Origin: a virus | Virus record (IMG/VR): IMGVR_UViG_3300029309_000296 | Coordinates: 1-26,698 of that record | DNA length: 26,698 bases | Direction: 5' to 3' (one strand) | Part shown: in pieces, positions 8,381 through 26,698 of the stretch | How positions within the stretch are numbered: the first letter of the stretch is position 1 | How the letters are laid out: every line of letters starts with the position of its first letter | Position numbers and translations under genes: made by a program | The notes under the pieces: generated by a model | What the model was told of the DNA's origin: nothing | Database searches by the model: none | What the model saw: the letters and a program-made list of their open reading frames with translations, nothing else

Positions 8381-10393
8381 TTACGCTGCCTCCTCTTTCC
8401 AATTAGGAGTTTGATTTGGAGTTATTTCGGACCAACTTGGTGTTTGACTAGCACTCACATCGGACCAACTTGGTGTTTGACTGGCACTCACATCGGACCA
8501 ACTTGGTGTTTGGCTGACACTCACATCGGACCAGCTAGGAGTCTGATCTGGCCCAATCTCACCCCAAATGTTAACAAGACCTATCTTACCTGTAATTTTT
8601 ACGCCGCTCAAGGAGACGGTTGCAGTGCCTGTAGGCGTGACCGAACCTACGGCACCCGTGGATGATACTCCTGTTACAGATACACCCACACCTTCTTCTA
8701 CTGTCACAGAGCCGACAGCGCCGGTTGCGGCCACTCCTGTTACGGATACACTTACATCAGTGGTTATTGATACTGTTACTGTGCCTACTGCACCGGCACC
8801 AGCCACACCACTGACCGATATTCCAACGCCCCCCTCAACAGAAACGGTGCCTACTTCACCAGTGCCAGCCACACCGCTGACTGATACTCCTACTCCTTCT
8901 TCAATAGAAACGGTGCCAATATTTCCAGTGGAGTTAACGCCAGTTGCGACAACATTAGCTTCACCTGTGGGAACTACTGCTCCTACACCACCATTAGCAG
9001 AAACACCTGAAACGTCTATGGAAACATCAGAACTTGCAGTTGCAGTGCCAATTTGGCCTACGGCAGAAACGCCACTGACAACAAATCTGGAATCACCACT
9101 GACAGTAGTAGTTCCAACATTGCCGGTAGAATTAACGCCAGTTGCAACTACATTGGCATCGCCAGTATGAACAATTGTTCCTATCTGACCTGTTCCAGAT
9201 ACACCCGTGGCGGATACATCAGTTCCTTCTTCGACAGAAATAGTGCCAATAGCACCTGTAGCCGCAGTGCCTGTTACATCTACAGATTTAGATATTTGAG
9301 CAACTACAGTGCCAATAGCACCTGTAGCCGCAACACCTGTCACATCTACGGATTTGGATATTTGAGCGACTACAGCCCCGATTTCGCCTGTAGCGGCAAT
9401 GCCTGTCACATCTACAGATTTAGATATTTGAGCGGCTACAGTGCCAATGGCACCTGTGGAGGAAACGCCACCAACAGTAAAGCTGGAATTACCGCTTACA
9501 GTTTCTTGACCAATCTCACCATTGGCCGCAACCCCCGTTGGAGAAACTATTGTCTCCCCTTGGAACTCTATGGCTCCAATCTCTCCTCTACCGGCAACGC
9601 CTGTTGGAGAAACAACAGACGTACCCGTAAGAGAAACTGTTCCCACTTCAGATGTGCCAGCAACGCCGGAAACAGAAACACTCGTGCCAGCCGCTGGCGT
9701 TACAGTGCCAATAGCGCCAGTGCCGGATACACCTGAAACACTTATTGAGACATCAGTTTGAACAGAGGCTGAGCCTATTTCACCTGTGGCTGCGACCCCT
9801 GTTACGTCCACAGATCTGGATATTTGAACAGCTACAGTGCCAATAGCACCCGTACCAGCTACGCCGCTAACAGATACGTCAGTGCCTTCTTGAACAGCTA
9901 CAGTGCCTATTTCACCTGTGCCAGATACACCCGTGACGGATACACCAATGCCTTGACCAACAGAAACTGTACCAACGGCACCCGTGCCAGCTACGCCGCT
10001 GACTGATACGCCAGCGCCTTCTTCGATAGAAACAGTGCCAACAGCGCCTGTGCCAGCCACGCCGCTAACAGATACACCTACGCCCTCTTGAATAGAAACT
10101 GTGCCGATAGCGCCAGTGCCAGCTACCCCTGTGGGGGTTACTGAAACGTTTTCTGTTCCTGAAGCGGTAACTGTACCAACAGCGCCTGTTCCAGCTACCC
10201 CTGTAGGACTTACTGAAGCGTCTGCTGTCACTGAAACGGTGACTGTGCCTATAGCGCCAGTACCAGCCACTCCTGTGGGGGTTACTGATACGTTGACAAC
10301 GCCGCCTGACGAAAAGTCAGCGTTAACAAAACCGAGTCCGTTAACGGTCAGGGTATCGTAAAACCCTAGTCCACTTACTCTCGGTAAAGCCAT
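8381..10393 (-). CDS. Giant repeat fibre: 26 x 22-residue repeats plus 11-residue C-terminal repeats
   Basis: This protein has 670 residues. The head (1-31) contains PRVSGLGFYDTLTVNGLGFV. Residues 32 to about 610 form 26 tandem repeats of mostly 22 residues with consensus (S/G)VSVSGVAGTGAIGTVSVEEG; each unit is short beta strands separated by GTG turns, which suggests a beta-solenoid or stacked-hairpin shaft. The tail (about 611-670) has five copies of an 11-residue repeat, QTPSWSDVSAS, which diverges at the end to QTPNWKEEAA. There are no cysteines and almost no charge apart from Asp/Glu. It is followed immediately by the second fibre gene. A related unit also occurs in the gene at 15634-16086. 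A structural fibre is likely; the ligand is unknown. Confidence 0.8.
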   Translation of the reverse strand: MALPRVSGLGFYDTLTVNGLGFVNADFSSGGVVNVSVTPTGVAGTGAIGTVTVSVTADASVSPTGVAGTGAVGTVTASGTENVSVTPTGVAGTGAIGTVSIQEGVGVSVSGVAGTGAVGTVSIEEGAGVSVSGVAGTGAVGTVSVGQGIGVSVTGVSGTGEIGTVAVQEGTDVSVSGVAGTGAIGTVAVQISRSVDVTGVAATGEIGSASVQTDVSISVSGVSGTGAIGTVTPAAGTSVSVSGVAGTSEVGTVSLTGTSVVSPTGVAGRGEIGAIEFQGETIVSPTGVAANGEIGQETVSGNSSFTVGGVSSTGAIGTVAAQISKSVDVTGIAATGEIGAVVAQISKSVDVTGVAATGAIGTVVAQISKSVDVTGTAATGAIGTISVEEGTDVSATGVSGTGQIGTIVHTGDANVVATGVNSTGNVGTTTVSGDSRFVVSGVSAVGQIGTATASSDVSIDVSGVSANGGVGAVVPTGEANVVATGVNSTGNIGTVSIEEGVGVSVSGVAGTGEVGTVSVEGGVGISVSGVAGAGAVGTVTVSITTDVSVSVTGVAATGAVGSVTVEEGVGVSVTGVSSTGAVGSVTPTGTATVSLSGVKITGKIGLVNIWGEIGPDQTPSWSDVSVSQTPSWSDVSASQTPSWSDVSASQTPSWSEITPNQTPNWKEEAA
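8396..8546 (-). repeat. 33-bp tandem repeats encoding QTPSWSDVSAS
   Basis: Near-identical 33-bp units begin at 8433, 8466 and 8499 (plus-strand core CAACTTGGTGTTTGACT), flanked by diverged units on both sides. They encode the five C-terminal copies of the 11-residue repeat in the fibre. In the central copies, differences are limited to a few bases, so this is a young duplication. Confidence 0.88.
8564..10300 (-). repeat. 26 tandem 66-bp units (22-residue repeats) within the fibre gene
   Basis: Translated on the minus strand, residues 32-610 of the 670-residue fibre contain 26 tandem units, mostly 22 residues (66 bp), with G-(V/I)-(A/S)-(G/A/S)-(T/A)-G-(A/E)-(I/V)-G-(T/S/A)-(V/I) as the invariant core. 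Spacing of matching codons is exactly 66 bases where I checked (TACAGATTTA-type words at 9281, 9347 and 9413). The three units around 9236-9450 are nearly identical at DNA level, whereas others are diverged, which fits recent tandem duplication on top of an old array. Confidence 0.9.
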
Positions 10394-10394
10394 G

Positions 10395-12497
10395 TTAGTA
10401 TGTCTCTATATCAGCAGAAACTACATAGTATTTTTGAATGTTTGTGTTATCTGTAAAGTCCAGACGAATTCCCAGAAGAACGGTTGTAATGTCGTCCTGT
10501 CCACTGGTCGGCACGTTACTTAAATTCAAAGTGACTGTTGTGGGAGAGGCTGGGTTGCCTCCCGCAGTCACCGTTGTGGCTGACGAACTATACACGCGAA
10601 AGTTGGTACTTTGAGTGGTGTCTCTGTGCCACGCTCGTAACAAAATAGAACCCGCCGCAGAATTGTCGTTTCCGTCTGCGTAAGCCACAACAACTTTTGC
10701 TCTTAAATCGTCCGATCCGGCAGTGTAGCTAGGGACAGAAAGGTCCAGAGGAATCCATGCCTGAGATGAAGAGCCACCGGTTGTTCCCGCCCATTGCCCT
10801 ACCAGTACATCTGTGCTGCTGACGGTATCGTTGTACATCAACGATGCGTAACCCTTTCCCGCTGTGTACGGGTCAGTTATCAGGGAAATAGGTATGCCGT
10901 CGTGAGTATTATGCTCACCGCTAATGATTTGGTAGCGTGGCGCTCCTGTAGCTGAAGCAGCGGTTAATGTCAAGTAGGCTATGTTATGAGTCGCCGTTTT
11001 ATAGTCTGAACTTGATGTTAATTTGCCTATACTATCATACTCAATAGGGCGTTGGCCTTCTCGCGAAAAAAGAGGGGAAAACCAGCTATTTGTCGTGTCT
11101 AGTGCTTGCTCAGACAAAAATATATTACTGCCAGAGGTGTTAACCGCCCCGAAGTCTGGGCCATATTCATCCGCATTTGTATTAAAACCAGAACTATTTA
11201 GTGGAGATATGCCGGGGTTCTTGAGATTTGTTCCGTAAGTGTTAGTACCGTTAGCACTTAGCGACAACGAAAAGTCATGCGGACCGTATCGTTGATGTAA
11301 ATAATAAACACTGTTACTTAAAAACTCGCAGGCAATGTCATCGTCTTGTATAGCGCTGTCTCCAAACCTACTAAAGCCATCGGCTCCTGTCTCCCCTCTG
11401 CCGTATAAATTGCCCACTTTTATTGCAGAAATTCCCCCATAATGAGAACTCGCAAACAACGGAGACGCACCGACCATATTTTCAAATACATGCGGATTAG
11501 TATCAGCCGTGCCGTTAAAAGACATGGTTGACGAAAGTTGATACCCGCCTCCAGATATTAACGGGAAGTTTGTTTGAACGTTTGGTGGCTTCGAGTTGCT
11601 AACATCCGGTGCATAATACTCAGCGGCCAAGATCATGGGCGCGGTCAAAATGCCAGTGCCTCCATTTGTCGAGGGATTAAAATCAACATACAGTCGGGTA
11701 TATTTGAAACCGCTTGTATTACTGGTTCCGGCGTGAACCATTAATCGTCCTAAATCAAAATAAGTGTCTGTAACGCTACTACCCGCACCAATGTAAAGCC
11801 TTTCAAAATTGGTTGTCGCCATCGTCTCTAAAATGCTGTAGCCATCCTGCGCAGTTTCACTCGTCCAACCTGCGCTTATTTTACAATCCGCAGAGGTATT
11901 AAATGCGTAGATGTATTGATTATGCGAGTACCGATTTGCGTAAGTATCTTTAACTCGAAAAACCTCAATGCCAGTGGTACTAGCTGCGTTGTAACCAAGC
12001 TGTGTATAAACGACAGCAAAAACGAAAGGCTGGATATATTGTTGTAGGGTAGAGGTGGTCGAGCTACTATGGGCCGCGAAAAAAAGTGGATGTGACCACC
12101 CCGGAAGATAAGAAGATATATCACTATTTTGAAAAGCGTAAATATTGGACACGCCGGTGGCAGAGCCAGCGCTAGCAAAATCTGCCGTGCTATTACCTGT
12201 TACCGGCTCAAGATCGCCGTAAATTTGAACGTCGCTAGAACCAGTGCCGTAACCAGTGTTGTAGACATTACCTTCGCTTGCGAAAAGATCAGAAAAAGAA
12301 AGCCCTTTTAAACGTATCTCATCGCCGTCTGAAATAGTGACGCCATTAAAACTATTAGGAGCAGCCGTGTTAGTTTTAATAAGTTCGCTGTGTACAGAAA
12401 AGGGCGCGGCATAAGTGCCGTTTTTAGTCGTTGTATCAGTTGTGCCATTGCCTTGCGTCGTCGCCTCAAGGAATGGGTCAGCCCAATAGACGGTCAT
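10395..12497 (-). CDS. Large beta-rich virion protein of the fibre cluster
   Basis: This protein has 700 residues and begins MTVYWADPFLEATTQGNG. Its start overlaps the upstream stop (ATGA). The sequence is rich in Ser, Thr, Asn, Gly, Tyr and Phe, poor in Lys, and has no hydrophobic transmembrane run, so a secreted-type or virion-surface beta protein is likely. An N-terminal segment GTYAAPFSVHSELI resembles parallel beta-helix virion proteins, and the C-terminal 150 residues look like a jelly-roll or Ig-like domain (DLSVPSYTAGSDDLRAKVVV, then VTLNLSNVP). No catalytic motif for a depolymerase is evident. Position next to the repeat fibre suggests a tailspike, fibre or fibre-adaptor role. Confidence 0.7.
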   Translation of the reverse strand: MTVYWADPFLEATTQGNGTTDTTTKNGTYAAPFSVHSELIKTNTAAPNSFNGVTISDGDEIRLKGLSFSDLFASEGNVYNTGYGTGSSDVQIYGDLEPVTGNSTADFASAGSATGVSNIYAFQNSDISSYLPGWSHPLFFAAHSSSTTSTLQQYIQPFVFAVVYTQLGYNAASTTGIEVFRVKDTYANRYSHNQYIYAFNTSADCKISAGWTSETAQDGYSILETMATTNFERLYIGAGSSVTDTYFDLGRLMVHAGTSNTSGFKYTRLYVDFNPSTNGGTGILTAPMILAAEYYAPDVSNSKPPNVQTNFPLISGGGYQLSSTMSFNGTADTNPHVFENMVGASPLFASSHYGGISAIKVGNLYGRGETGADGFSRFGDSAIQDDDIACEFLSNSVYYLHQRYGPHDFSLSLSANGTNTYGTNLKNPGISPLNSSGFNTNADEYGPDFGAVNTSGSNIFLSEQALDTTNSWFSPLFSREGQRPIEYDSIGKLTSSSDYKTATHNIAYLTLTAASATGAPRYQIISGEHNTHDGIPISLITDPYTAGKGYASLMYNDTVSSTDVLVGQWAGTTGGSSSQAWIPLDLSVPSYTAGSDDLRAKVVVAYADGNDNSAAGSILLRAWHRDTTQSTNFRVYSSSATTVTAGGNPASPTTVTLNLSNVPTSGQDDITTVLLGIRLDFTDNTNIQKYYVVSADIETY

Positions 12498-23311: not shown

Positions 23312-23782
23312 CTATACATATGAAATATCAGCAGGGTCAAGGATAGTAGCGATAATATTATCGTCATTTATGAGGCGAACCTCCAAACCATCCACTTTGA
23401 ACCTATTTCCAGCATATCTTCCCATTAAAACCCAAGAACCTTGCTCACACCACGGACCCGTTGGGAATTTTTGGGCATCTTTATATGCGTCTGGGCCAAC
23501 CTTTACGACATAGGCTGCAACAGTTGCAAAACTCTCGCGCTCTCGCACCTTATCTGGAATATACACGCCAGAGGATGTTTTGGCCTTCATGTAGTATGGA
23601 ATGACAAGGAGACGATAACCCACAGGTTGCGGAAGACGCTCTAACGCGGAGGCTTCCATCTTTGATGGGTCTTCGTTGTTCTTCGTGTCTTCATCATGCT
23701 GATCAAAAGCCTTCTCAATGGCAGGAGGCATTTCATCTTTTGGTTTCGTCATCCTCTCAGGAACAAATAGCTTTTTAGCCAT
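23312..23782 (-). CDS. groES: Phage GroES-like co-chaperonin (Cpn10)
   Basis: This protein has 156 residues. Residues 49-150 align by eye with Cpn10: PVGYRLLVIPYYM (53-65), the mobile loop KAKTSSGVYIPDKVRERES (66-84) with a hydrophobic VYI at the GroEL-contact position, then ATVAAYVVKVGPDAY, CEQGSWVLMGRYAGNRFKVD (112-131) and a C-terminal DDNIIATILDP. Residues 1-48 form an acidic extension absent from bacterial GroES. No groEL is in the window, so it would work with host GroEL, as T4 gp31 does for gp23. Position between portal and scaffold/capsid genes supports a capsid-folding role. It overlaps the upstream gene by 8 bases. Confidence 0.85.
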   Translation of the reverse strand: MAKKLFVPERMTKPKDEMPPAIEKAFDQHDEDTKNNEDPSKMEASALERLPQPVGYRLLVIPYYMKAKTSSGVYIPDKVRERESFATVAAYVVKVGPDAYKDAQKFPTGPWCEQGSWVLMGRYAGNRFKVDGLEVRLINDDNIIATILDPADISYV

Positions 23783-24367: not shown

Positions 24368-24685
24368 CTAACCCCTTTTGCCCATGATAGCGGACGCTCC
24401 CATATAGGCACCCACAATGCCTGCGCCACTAATGTAGAAAAGATTGCTAATGTCTGAAAGAGCATTCACTCTTTCAATCTCCACAAAAAACATGGCCACG
24501 GTAAATCCCGCCATGGCAACAAGGCAAGCGGTAGCCATACGGCGCTGGGCGCGCAATTTGCGCATCTCATGCTCTGCCTGCCGTATTTCTTTGGCATGAG
24601 CGAGTTCAGCATCAGTGATTTCGCCGTCTCCGTCGAGATCATACTGAGCATACGCTGTGCCTTTTTCAAACTTCTTCGCGGCCAT
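24368..24685 (-). CDS. Membrane protein with canonical EF-hand loop
   Basis: This protein has 105 residues. The frame continues upstream, but the ATG at 24685 follows AGGGGGGA with 2-6 bases of spacing and avoids overlap with the previous gene, so it is preferred. Residues 16-27 (DLDGDGEITDAE) form a perfect EF-hand loop: Asp at 1, 3 and 5, Gly at 6, Ile at 8 and Glu at 12. A charged helix (28-49) and two transmembrane segments (about 50-69 and 82-100) follow. The family recurs in marine phages beside 3TM holins. Calcium-sensing lysis or envelope function is an inference; the paired EF-hand of typical calmodulin-like proteins is absent. Confidence 0.75.
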   Translation of the reverse strand: MAAKKFEKGTAYAQYDLDGDGEITDAELAHAKEIRQAEHEMRKLRAQRRMATACLVAMAGFTVAMFFVEIERVNALSDISNLFYISGAGIVGAYMGASAIMGKRG

Positions 24686-24693
24686 GGTCCCCC

Positions 24694-24936
24694 CTAAGTA
24701 ACGCGGAACTTCTTTGGTTTTCTTACACGTCCTTGTCCACGGCATACTTCTCCACCATCACGGAATTTAAAGCCATATTGTTTTGTTCTATTGTCATAGC
24801 TAAACCCTCTTTTGCCAGCCTTCAAAGCAGCCTTGAGATCTTCTAGCTGCTCATCGGTTAAGCCCTGAAACATCTTGCTCATAGGAATTGGCTTGGGCGG
24901 CTTGAATCCGGGGCCATATTTATCTTTGTCAGCCAT
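24694..24936 (-). CDS. Small conserved phage protein with C-terminal GGEVCRG motif
   Basis: This protein has 80 residues. The ATG overlaps the upstream stop (TAATG). The N-terminus [20 protein letters not shown] precedes a helix (LTDEQLEDLKAALKAGKRGF) and then a C-terminal tail, FRDGGEVCRGQGRVRKPKKF, ending RVT. The C-terminal (G)GEVCRG-G----KKFRV pattern is common at the ends of small marine phage proteins and is related to the RGCGAVLDRRRK tail of the 115-residue protein at 18629-18976. Function is unknown. A single conserved Cys in a basic tail may bind nucleic acid or metal. Confidence 0.7.
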   Translation of the reverse strand: MADKDKYGPGFKPPKPIPMSKMFQGLTDEQLEDLKAALKAGKRGFSYDNRTKQYGFKFRDGGEVCRGQGRVRKPKKFRVT

Positions 24937-25181
24937 TATCTGACTCCTAAGAACCTTTGCGGTCTAGCGATACTAGAGAAGCGAGAAACTTTCCCGCCAC
25001 TAGCTTTTCTTAGCGGCTTTCTTTTTTGCTGCGGCTTTTTTGGGCGCGGCTTTTTTTGCTGCTTTTTTCCCGCTTGCGACAGGGCTATCGCTACTGCTTG
25101 CCTCTGCGGATACCCCTCCGATCTCAGCTTGCTGATGTTGCTGCTGATCGTCTGCTGGCTTTTGCCTTTCTTCAAGGGCAT
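24936..25181 (-). CDS. Small basic DUF6496-like protein, overlapping another gene out of frame
   Basis: This protein has 81 residues. GGAG lies seven bases before the ATG at 25181. The N-terminus [20 protein letters not shown] and [19 protein letters not shown] (1-39) is the hallmark of a small phage domain I remember as DUF6496 (MPL-KG-S--(T/A)IS-NI------G-P--QAVAIAL--A). The C-terminus [18 protein letters not shown] also has a pattern I have seen in marine phages. The middle is Lys/Gln/Pro-rich. 182 bases overlap the 83-codon gene that starts at 25251 in another frame. Three A_AAA_AAG heptamers (25068-25062, 25056-25050 and 25041-25035) are in its frame and could give -1 slippage into that frame, producing a 60-residue variant. 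Function is unknown; DNA binding is suggested by charge. Confidence 0.78.
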
Positions 25182-25251
25182 GGCGACGCTCCACTTTTTT
25201 AGCCTTCATTTGCTCCGCAACTTTGCGGGACTGTGAACTAGCTGACATCAT
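25000..25251 (-). CDS. Overlapping small basic protein with histone-H1-like Lys/Ala tail
   Basis: This is an 83-codon frame. Tandem ATGs (25251 and 25248) overlap the portal stop, and AGGAG lies five bases before the first, an excellent ribosome site. The N-terminal third ([20 protein letters not shown], then [19 protein letters not shown]) is helical and charged. The last 22 residues are alternating Lys/Ala blocks ([20 protein letters not shown]), like histone H1 or bacterial HU-fusion tails. From 25181 leftward the bases are also read by the DUF6496-like gene in a different frame. Its start is well supported. The 3' part may exist because it is shared with the other frame, by overprinting or frameshifting. 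If only one of the two is made, the DUF6496-like frame is the safer choice for 25181-24936. Confidence 0.6.
25035..25068 (-). other. Cluster of three -1 slippery heptamers (candidate frameshift site)
   Basis: In the frame of the DUF6496-like gene the codon pairs at 40, 44 and 49 each read A_AAA_AAG (25068-25062, 25056-25050, 25041-25035), the heptamer known to be efficient for -1 slippage in Escherichia coli. A -1 slip moves ribosomes into the frame of the overlapping gene, which ends in Lys/Ala repeats and stops at 25000. A possible 7-bp hairpin (25017-25011 with 25002-24996, one G-U) lies 17 bases after the last heptamer, farther than usual for a stimulator. Lys-Lys codons make such heptamers common, so function is uncertain. 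Confidence 0.4.
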
Positions 25252-26698
25252 TGTCTCCTATTCATCAGGTTGGCAGCAGCGATATCTCGCTGTGCTTGCA
25301 CACGGTCATCAGCGACTCTGATGCGCTCTTCATTTGCTTCTTCCTGCAAATCAAGCCTTTGCTGTGCGAGAAGAACGTCATTGCGCTCCTTCTCACGCTC
25401 CATATCTTGCTTCTCCTCAAACTGGCGAGACTTCTCCTGAATCTCAGCGCCACGTAGAGCAAGCTCCTGCTGCCTGATTGCTACCAGTGGATCAGTGTTA
25501 TCAGCAGGAGCAACTGCTTGTGCGTACTGCTCGGTCAACTCGCCGATCAGTTCTGCCGCACGATTTGCAACTTGGGCCTGAAGCTGTTGCAGCATCATTG
25601 GATCTTGCTGCATCATCATTTGCGCTTCAGGTGGTACATTAGCCATGACTTCTTGCTGCGCTTGGGCCTCCGCCATCATTCCAATATGCTCAGAAATATG
25701 GCCTTGCAGTGTCATAACGATATTCGCATTAGTTTGTGCGATTGGGGTCGAAAGCATAGCCAGATGGGCCTCAATATGAGCCTGATGATTCTGATCAGGA
25801 AAGGCTTGCAGCCTCTGATTACGCAATGCTTCTTGATTTTCACGCGCAGGGTTCATTGGCTGGGGCTGTGGCGGCCTTGGCAGGATAGAATCTATGTTCG
25901 TAACGCCCAAAGCTTCATACATCTTGCGATATGCCTGATATACGCCCTGTGGACCGCCATGAATCTCTGGATTGGACTGCACAAGCTGCAATTGTGTCTG
26001 TGCCAAAGCAATTCTTTGCGACATTGAGAAGATATTCGGGTCAGAAACTGGCAAAACGTCAATTCTGGAGTCGAAATCACTCTGCTTAATGTCGGGAGTT
26101 GCCCCAAACACCTCATATGGGTATATGGGGGCAGAAAATTTGGCAAAAACATCAGCCAAAAGCTTAAATTCGATCTTCTGAGAGTAATGCAAGCGCTTAT
26201 GGATAGCGCTCATTACCTTTGTGCCGCGCTCCATAATAGCCATAGTCGTGCCAACTGGAGTTTCGCCACCCATTTCTCCAATCTTCATGTCGGCCATGGA
26301 GGCAAAACGCCGCCCTGAGTCAACAAGCGTCCCAAGAAGCTGATAAAGCGTTCCTGAAGGCTCTTTAAACGGCAAAGTCATGATAGATTGGCGGATATCC
26401 ATACCAGCAGCGTCGATATCGCGGAACTCACCCGGAGACAATGGCTGGTCTTCGTCCCTAATACGCGCACCACGGGCCTTAAAGCCAGCCGGTAGGTTAG
26501 ATAGCGTGCCAGCGTCGATAAGCTGCCGTAGGATGCTTGTAGAGGCTTGAGACAGCCCTCCAATCATGTGGGTCAGGCCAAAGCCGTAGAAGCCGAGTCC
26601 GGGCAAAAACTTATAATGGACAAAGTATTGCTTCCGGCGCATCAGCGCATCTTCTTGATCATAGTTGCGGCGAACAGACAAAACCTCGCCTGTCGCCT
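25248..26698 (-). CDS. P22-like portal protein, C-terminal portion (N-terminus outside window)
   Basis: 482 complete codons are visible and the frame is open to the right edge. An in-frame TTG at 26681 is not the real start because coding-like sequence continues upstream (ATGEVLSVRRNYDQ). Typical portal segments are GLGFYGFGLTHMIGGLSQAS, LIDAGTLSNLPAGFKARGAR, IRDEDQPLSPGEFRDID, IMTLPFKEPSGTLYQLLGTL, IGEMGGETPVGTTMAIMERG and KVMSAIHKRLHYSQKIEFKL. The C-terminal 150 residues are Gln/Ala/Met-rich and end in a Glu/Arg/Gln coiled coil, like the barrel of P22 gp1. The portal forms the dodecameric DNA channel and binds the terminase and the gp4-like connector. Terminase genes would be expected to the right. 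The stop overlaps the next start, with AGGAG inside the portal's last codons. Confidence 0.87.
   Translation of the reverse strand, partial: ATGEVLSVRRNYDQEDALMRRKQYFVHYKFLPGLGFYGFGLTHMIGGLSQASTSILRQLIDAGTLSNLPAGFKARGARIRDEDQPLSPGEFRDIDAAGMDIRQSIMTLPFKEPSGTLYQLLGTLVDSGRRFASMADMKIGEMGGETPVGTTMAIMERGTKVMSAIHKRLHYSQKIEFKLLADVFAKFSAPIYPYEVFGATPDIKQSDFDSRIDVLPVSDPNIFSMSQRIALAQTQLQLVQSNPEIHGGPQGVYQAYRKMYEALGVTNIDSILPRPPQPQPMNPARENQEALRNQRLQAFPDQNHQAHIEAHLAMLSTPIAQTNANIVMTLQGHISEHIGMMAEAQAQQEVMANVPPEAQMMMQQDPMMLQQLQAQVANRAAELIGELTEQYAQAVAPADNTDPLVAIRQQELALRGAEIQEKSRQFEEKQDMEREKERNDVLLAQQRLDLQEEANEERIRVADDRVQAQRDIAAANLMNRRQ

Follow-up and report, generated by a model that had tools for sequence, protein, structure and literature searches.

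Two small genes behind a phage portal gene very probably share 182 nucleotides in different reading frames

Does one stretch of DNA directly behind a phage portal gene encode two proteins, or is one of its two overlapping reading frames an artefact of annotation? When tailed phages show long overlaps on one strand, misannotation is the usual suspicion, and gene callers disfavour such overlaps. The locus lies in a 26.7-kb virus record, analyzed here as a whole (the window) and probably derived from a marine phage. In the sequence as in its ORF list, the DNA at 25000-25181 is covered by two ORFs that differ in frame. A first interpretation made from the letters alone (the sequence-only reading) had reported both ORFs, two ribosome-site-like motifs and a 182-nt overlap, which were all recovered at these positions, and had proposed overprinting rather than misannotation. 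Genes nearby include the portal gene (phrog_1216), an EF-hand-like protein, phrog_2524, GroES and the major head protein. The features of the locus are as follows.

25248-26681, minus strand: portal gene, C-terminal part (phrog_1216, E=1.2e-27; Pfam SU10_portal, E=9.2e-8), running off the window
25248-25250, minus strand: portal stop TGA, overlapping the start of gene A as TGATG
25255-25259, minus strand: AGGAG, Shine-Dalgarno-like motif of gene A, seen in the sequence; such motifs also lie upstream of A in 101 tabulated homologues
25000-25248, minus strand: gene A, 82 aa, stop TAG at 25000; 83 aa if started at the upstream ATG, 25251
25189-25192, minus strand: GGAG, Shine-Dalgarno-like motif of gene B, within gene A codons (K-V-E-R-R)
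25000-25181, minus strand: putative dual-coding overlap, 182 nt, phase +1; B codon positions 1/2/3 are A codon positions 2/3/1
24936-25181, minus strand: gene B, 81 aa, ATG at 25181, TAA at 24936
25047-25181, minus strand: B residues 1-45, phrog_2423 region (E=3e-16), helix hairpin predicted by AlphaFold2
24939-24998, minus strand: B residues 62-81, tail GGxVxRFSxIARPQRFxGVx, in the window entirely beyond the overlap
25003-25071, minus strand: A residues 60-82, Lys/Ala-rich C-terminal tail, overlapping B's basic linker
24694-24936, minus strand: next gene, 80 aa, starting as TAATG on B's stop

The AGGAG motif (25259-25255) lies 3 nt before the ATG at 25251, which had been read as the start of A, and 6 nt before a second ATG at 25248. 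In the window's clade, most homologues have AGGAGGCAGTAATG here and start A at the codon that matches 25248, and gene A is therefore taken as 25248-25000. The motif and the first ATG are thus present as described, but the start is probably the second ATG (82 aa) rather than the first (83 aa). Gene B begins 67 nt into A, with GGAG (25192-25189) positioned 7 nt upstream of its ATG at 25181. GGAG at this distance is found in 72 of 101 homologues (70 with ATG, two with TTG), and the remainder mostly carry AGGAG or GGAGG at 6 nt. From this arrangement we infer that A would be expressed by reinitiation at the portal stop, starting on TGATG, and B independently from the internal GGAG written inside A's codons.

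To obtain homologues, IMG/VR was searched with B, A and variants of both, and the loci were sorted by script. Three sets emerged among 132 distinct loci with a short ORF ending in an IARPQRF-type tail. The A+B overlap set comprises 109 non-redundant loci, in all of which the A frame is open through the overlap; the third frame closes there after 2-18 codons. Fourteen loci are B-only, their A frame closing after 3-13 codons. In the remaining nine (A-plus-tail), the phrog_2423 start is missing and A is intact, with only B's basic linker and tail left. Searches with A proteins bearing a further C-terminal module (described below) added A-plus-tail loci whose B frame is closed on the 5' side of that module, and A-only loci, where A directly follows the portal gene without the B tail (L423, L432 and L426 were examined in detail). 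In another clade (L138-L155), B's phrog_2423 sequence is replaced by one starting MPVTSKRPQ, while neither frame is closed and the tail is retained. Homologues with one frame broken and the other intact had been named in advance as evidence against overprinting. Such homologues do exist, yet they are other lineages that have or lack an entire gene (B-only, A-only), which supports two separable genes instead. With loci carrying B without A, A without B, and A with the B tail only, A and B are separable genes and not a misannotation. One contig with a long-A overlap (L307, WTIQ01000384.1, a Rhodobacteraceae MAG) is binned with a Rhodobacteraceae genome, a host hint that may be a binning error.

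We then considered whether B alone might be a gene, with A open by chance or through B's Lys-rich composition. B belongs to a family (phrog_2423), whereas A has none in Pfam, PHROGs or NCBIfam (no Pfam family at E<=1), and low-complexity Lys/Ala codons do help to hold a second frame open. B was recoded synonymously, following the codon usage of the phage, in 2000 rounds for each locus. Given B's amino acids, the probability of an open A frame was 0.0015 in the median, 0.015 at most and 0.005 for L221, from the contig nearest to the window. Permuting B's own codons gave a median of 0.10, a weaker test since the observed B codons already avoid stops. B's protein does not itself force A open, as the closed A frame of B-only loci demonstrates. 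Together with the constraint on A's amino acids described below, the conservation of A's ribosome site and of its N-terminus upstream of B, and the occurrence of A without the B tail, these values make it highly unlikely that B alone is a gene.

Constraint on codons in both frames had been named beforehand as the test; it was carried out and came out positive for A and for B. Parsimony steps were counted for each alignment column over a 101-locus tree. Portal codon positions 1/2/3 show 5.7/3.1/17.2 steps per site, and A outside the overlap 6.1/4.4/13.3. Within the overlap, the values are 11.2 for B3/A1, 7.4 for B2/A3 and 5.4 for B1/A2. B's third position is thus slowed (11.2 versus 17.2 at portal third positions) and its second position, the third of A, is quickened (7.4 versus 3.1 at portal second positions). 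Both shifts match the prediction for dual coding.

For a second test, 38 close independent pairs were formed, each sequence being used once; differences were sorted by what they change in each of the two frames and normalized by opportunity, and intervals are bootstraps over pairs from unevenly sampled clades. For A, the ratio of changes nonsynonymous in both frames to changes synonymous in A and nonsynonymous in B (NN/SN) is 0.37 [0.26-0.49] in the overlap, compared with a single-coding null of 2.86 [2.35-3.63] from a virtual A frame in the portal gene and 2.29 from a virtual A frame in B's tail. For B, the ratio of changes nonsynonymous in both frames to changes nonsynonymous in A and synonymous in B (NN/NS) is 0.27 [0.18-0.39]; a virtual B frame placed in the portal gene gives 1.16 [0.82-1.54]. 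Constraint on A is weaker in the phrog_2423 part (B codons 2-40: NN/SN 0.60 [0.33-1.08], NN/NS 0.22) than past B codon 40 (0.26 and 0.39, respectively). Stops expected without constraint number 12.5 in A and 15.1 in B, and one and none were observed; half-counts in this tally probably come from codons with two differences. These results are robust to other choices of pairs and to kappa values of 2-8. In the window's clade alone (eight pairs, low power), 4.1 A stops were expected in B codons 2-40 and none was observed. The comparisons indicate that purifying selection acts on both reading frames of the overlap, less strongly on A within the phrog_2423 part, and that two genes very probably encode proteins from the same 182 nt.

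The fallback offered by the sequence-only reading, in which only the first 24 codons of A are used, does not hold for the homologue set as a whole, which displays constraint on A across the overlap, clearest over the Lys/Ala tail, and avoidance of stops. The converse possibility is that only A is translated beyond the first codons and B is a by-product frame, as one might suppose from the MPVTSKRPQ clade, which lost B's phrog_2423 sequence and kept A intact. B is nevertheless present without A in other phages, its NN/NS ratio lies far below the null, and its tail, outside A in most clades, has a dN/dS of 0.10 with changes mainly at third positions. We consider it most improbable that B is such a by-product.

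A fusion of A and B via a programmed +1 (or -2) frameshift from A into B would also connect the two frames. Lineages without phrog_2423 and its ribosome site (L183, L196, L214, L231, L338 and others) keep the tail in the +1 frame, and A-rich runs are present. Candidate ATGs for the B tail exist in these A-plus-tail lineages, with weak or no Shine-Dalgarno motifs. However, the window and the 109 overlap loci have a B start of their own, nearly always with a Shine-Dalgarno-like site, B-only genes are ordinary genes, and the usual -1 slip on A-runs would lead into the third frame, which soon reaches a stop. A fusion is unneeded wherever B comes with its own site; we regard it as highly improbable overall, its remaining chance lying with the A-plus-tail lineages.

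Two separately started proteins thus being the preferred reading, their sequences were compared with known families and their structures predicted. B (pI 12.0) had been credited with a DUF6496-like N-terminus. PF20106 has no match in the window at E<=10 and none appeared in the Pfam scan; residues 1-45 instead match phrog_2423 (E=3e-16), with a similar MPLKKGxSxxTIS... start and helix hairpin. AlphaFold2 places helices at 9-21 and 26-37 with high confidence (block pLDDT 96-97 for residues 11-30) and the rest extended. B is accordingly modelled as a phrog_2423 two-helix hairpin followed by a disordered basic linker and a conserved C-terminal tail. The end [RK]FxG[VIT]x is found in 109/109 homologues, and the tail FSxIARPQRFxGVx is retained in lineages without phrog_2423: four A-plus-tail lineages differ at 2-3 residues over the 16-residue tail, and their nucleotide changes fall mostly at third positions. 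A PDB fold search gave no match at E<=0.001, and matches in BFVD are other small unnamed phage proteins sharing the hairpin. Searching PDB sequences with a B profile mainly retrieved artificial helical-repeat proteins over one short stretch, from which no meaning was drawn.

A is likewise basic (pI 10.2). Its structure prediction has low confidence (mean pLDDT 60.8) with a helix at 4-28, suggesting a short N-terminal helix and a mostly disordered remainder with a Lys/Ala-rich C-terminus. The tail had been called histone-H1-like; its Lys/Ala composition does resemble H1, but A has no Pfam match. An AT-hook-like KKRGRPRK is located at the position of the Lys/Ala tail in 12/109 A proteins, in sister clades, and is absent from the window's A; PF02178 (AT-hook) scores E=0.07 and 13.4 bits on sister-clade A, below the cut-off of 17.4. 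That both products are basic is correct, yet it is not evidence of overprinting: AAR/GCN-rich (Lys/Ala) codons read in +1 give Lys/Arg/Gln/Pro, so that the shared basicity is largely mechanical.

Long phase +1 overlaps in tailed phages are familiar from spanin pairs (PMC6139136), and Rz/Rz1 spanins are likewise two +1-frame proteins with separate ribosome sites and disorder-prone products (PMC6139136, PMC8903798). The gene arrangement here is alike, and o-spanins often go unannotated in the +1 frame (PMC6139136), which counts in favour of an overlapping two-component spanin pair. Among 218 A and B proteins, however, none has a transmembrane segment (19-residue hydropathy maximum 1.03), as an i-spanin would, and none has a cysteine and hence the lipobox of an o-spanin. 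The locus moreover follows the portal gene and not a lysis cassette. A spanin pair was rejected as exceedingly unlikely.

How the overlap arose was approached with a portal-protein tree of 71 rows, which is drawn with a midpoint root and contains several long branches. All 61 A-bearing loci fall into one clade (support 100/99), with B-only loci and named isolates outside it; an earlier tree agrees on this main split. Within the A-bearing clade, several distinct lineages lack the phrog_2423 part (A-plus-tail requires at least five label changes), and B is wholly absent in two places. Label changes may be gains or losses; they are read as losses because B-only forms lie outside the A-bearing clade. 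The spread of phrog_2423 across GenBank phages (130 records) indicates that B's domain is older than the overlap. Members inspected there are mostly 43-50 aa and non-overlapping, with no IARPQRF tail and a closed A frame. Locus L173 has an intact phrog_2423 B, yet its portal groups with phages whose B N-terminus is replaced, which suggests recombination or regain.

A second module lies on the side of A. The A proteins of the long-A, A-plus-tail and A-only forms contain VRARxExGHFxADDPxTPENEAW, a sequence shared with small proteins that other phages encode without any overlap, Roseobacter phage CRP-2 gp67 being one. The combined module, VRARxExGHFxADDPxTPxxNEAW with KKKAPAKKK, sits at the C-terminus of A in these forms and elsewhere in non-overlapping marine-phage genes with unrelated N-termini; the window's A keeps the Lys/Ala tail only. 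In L426 (2504-2836), the A protein has VRARxExGxFxxDDPxTxxNEAW twice, in tandem. Over the stretch shared with phrog_2423, A would carry sequence overprinted on B, and where A has the VRARxEKGHFxADDPxTPENEAW module, B's reading would be overprinted filler, so that each gene would supply filler to the other. This reciprocal overprint, each gene's free stretch being written over the other's conserved module and both modules also existing outside the overlap, is a reading to which we give slightly less than even chances. If true, the cassette repeatedly shed one module or gene and kept the other frame, making it a natural experiment on birth, constraint and release of overlapping genes.

With respect to known systems, the 182 nt shared by A and B compare with a median length of 14 nt (IQR 8-26) for +1 overlaps of virus reference genomes (PMC8903798). 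The A/B pair differs from other same-strand +1 overprinting cases in having A-only and B-only relatives. The nearest named portal relatives, pelagiphages HTVC023P/HTVC027P, Roseobacter CRP-901/902 and DSL-LC04 (44-59% identity over best matches), have small genes after the portal gene and, in several, GroES downstream; none has the A/B overlap, and DSL-LC04 has a B-like gene only. A DNA search of GenBank phages gave no match to the locus and a search with the gene A protein none either, whereas the gene B protein matched by its N-terminus only. The overlap is absent from every named phage record inspected, and literature on related phages, its text searched for 'overlap', does not mention the pair. 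Overprinting and +1 overlaps are known as such, and the A/B overlap, being absent from those records, is a well-supported new case. Its support is unusually direct, combining more than 100 homologues with constraint in both frames and A-only, B-only and A-plus-tail relatives. Methods for detecting dual coding could be tested on it, and it offers a system for asking what befalls a protein once the overlying gene vanishes.

As to function, retention of the tail where the rest of B is lost points to a putative short docking motif in the head module. Tentatively, and with considerable doubt, A and B could be late accessory proteins of the head module that are translated from the portal mRNA, their basic segments contacting nucleic acid and the B tail docking on a conserved phage partner. 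These suggested roles are based on position, charge and composition, the AT-hook-like motif below the Pfam cut-off, and disorder; none of the structure matches gave a function for A or B.

Some further observations concern neighboring genes. The next small protein (24694-24936, minus strand) ends CRGQGRVRKPKKFRVT, and several small genes near the portal gene of related phages have similar Arg/Gly/Lys-Phe ends (HTVC023P gp32, ...IRGHKFIGVK), possibly a shared C-terminal signal. Large virion-region ORFs at 225-2528, 8381-10393 and 10395-12497 (minus strand; 767, 670 and 700 aa) have no PHROGs match at E<=0.001. The small product of the ORF at 24368-24685 (minus strand, start likely ATG 24685) has hydrophobic segments behind a single EF-hand-like loop (YDLDGDGEITDAE; Pfam EF-hand E=0.007, under the cut-off), and 23312-23782 (minus strand) encodes a phage GroES co-chaperonin (Pfam Cpn10, E=2.6e-10).
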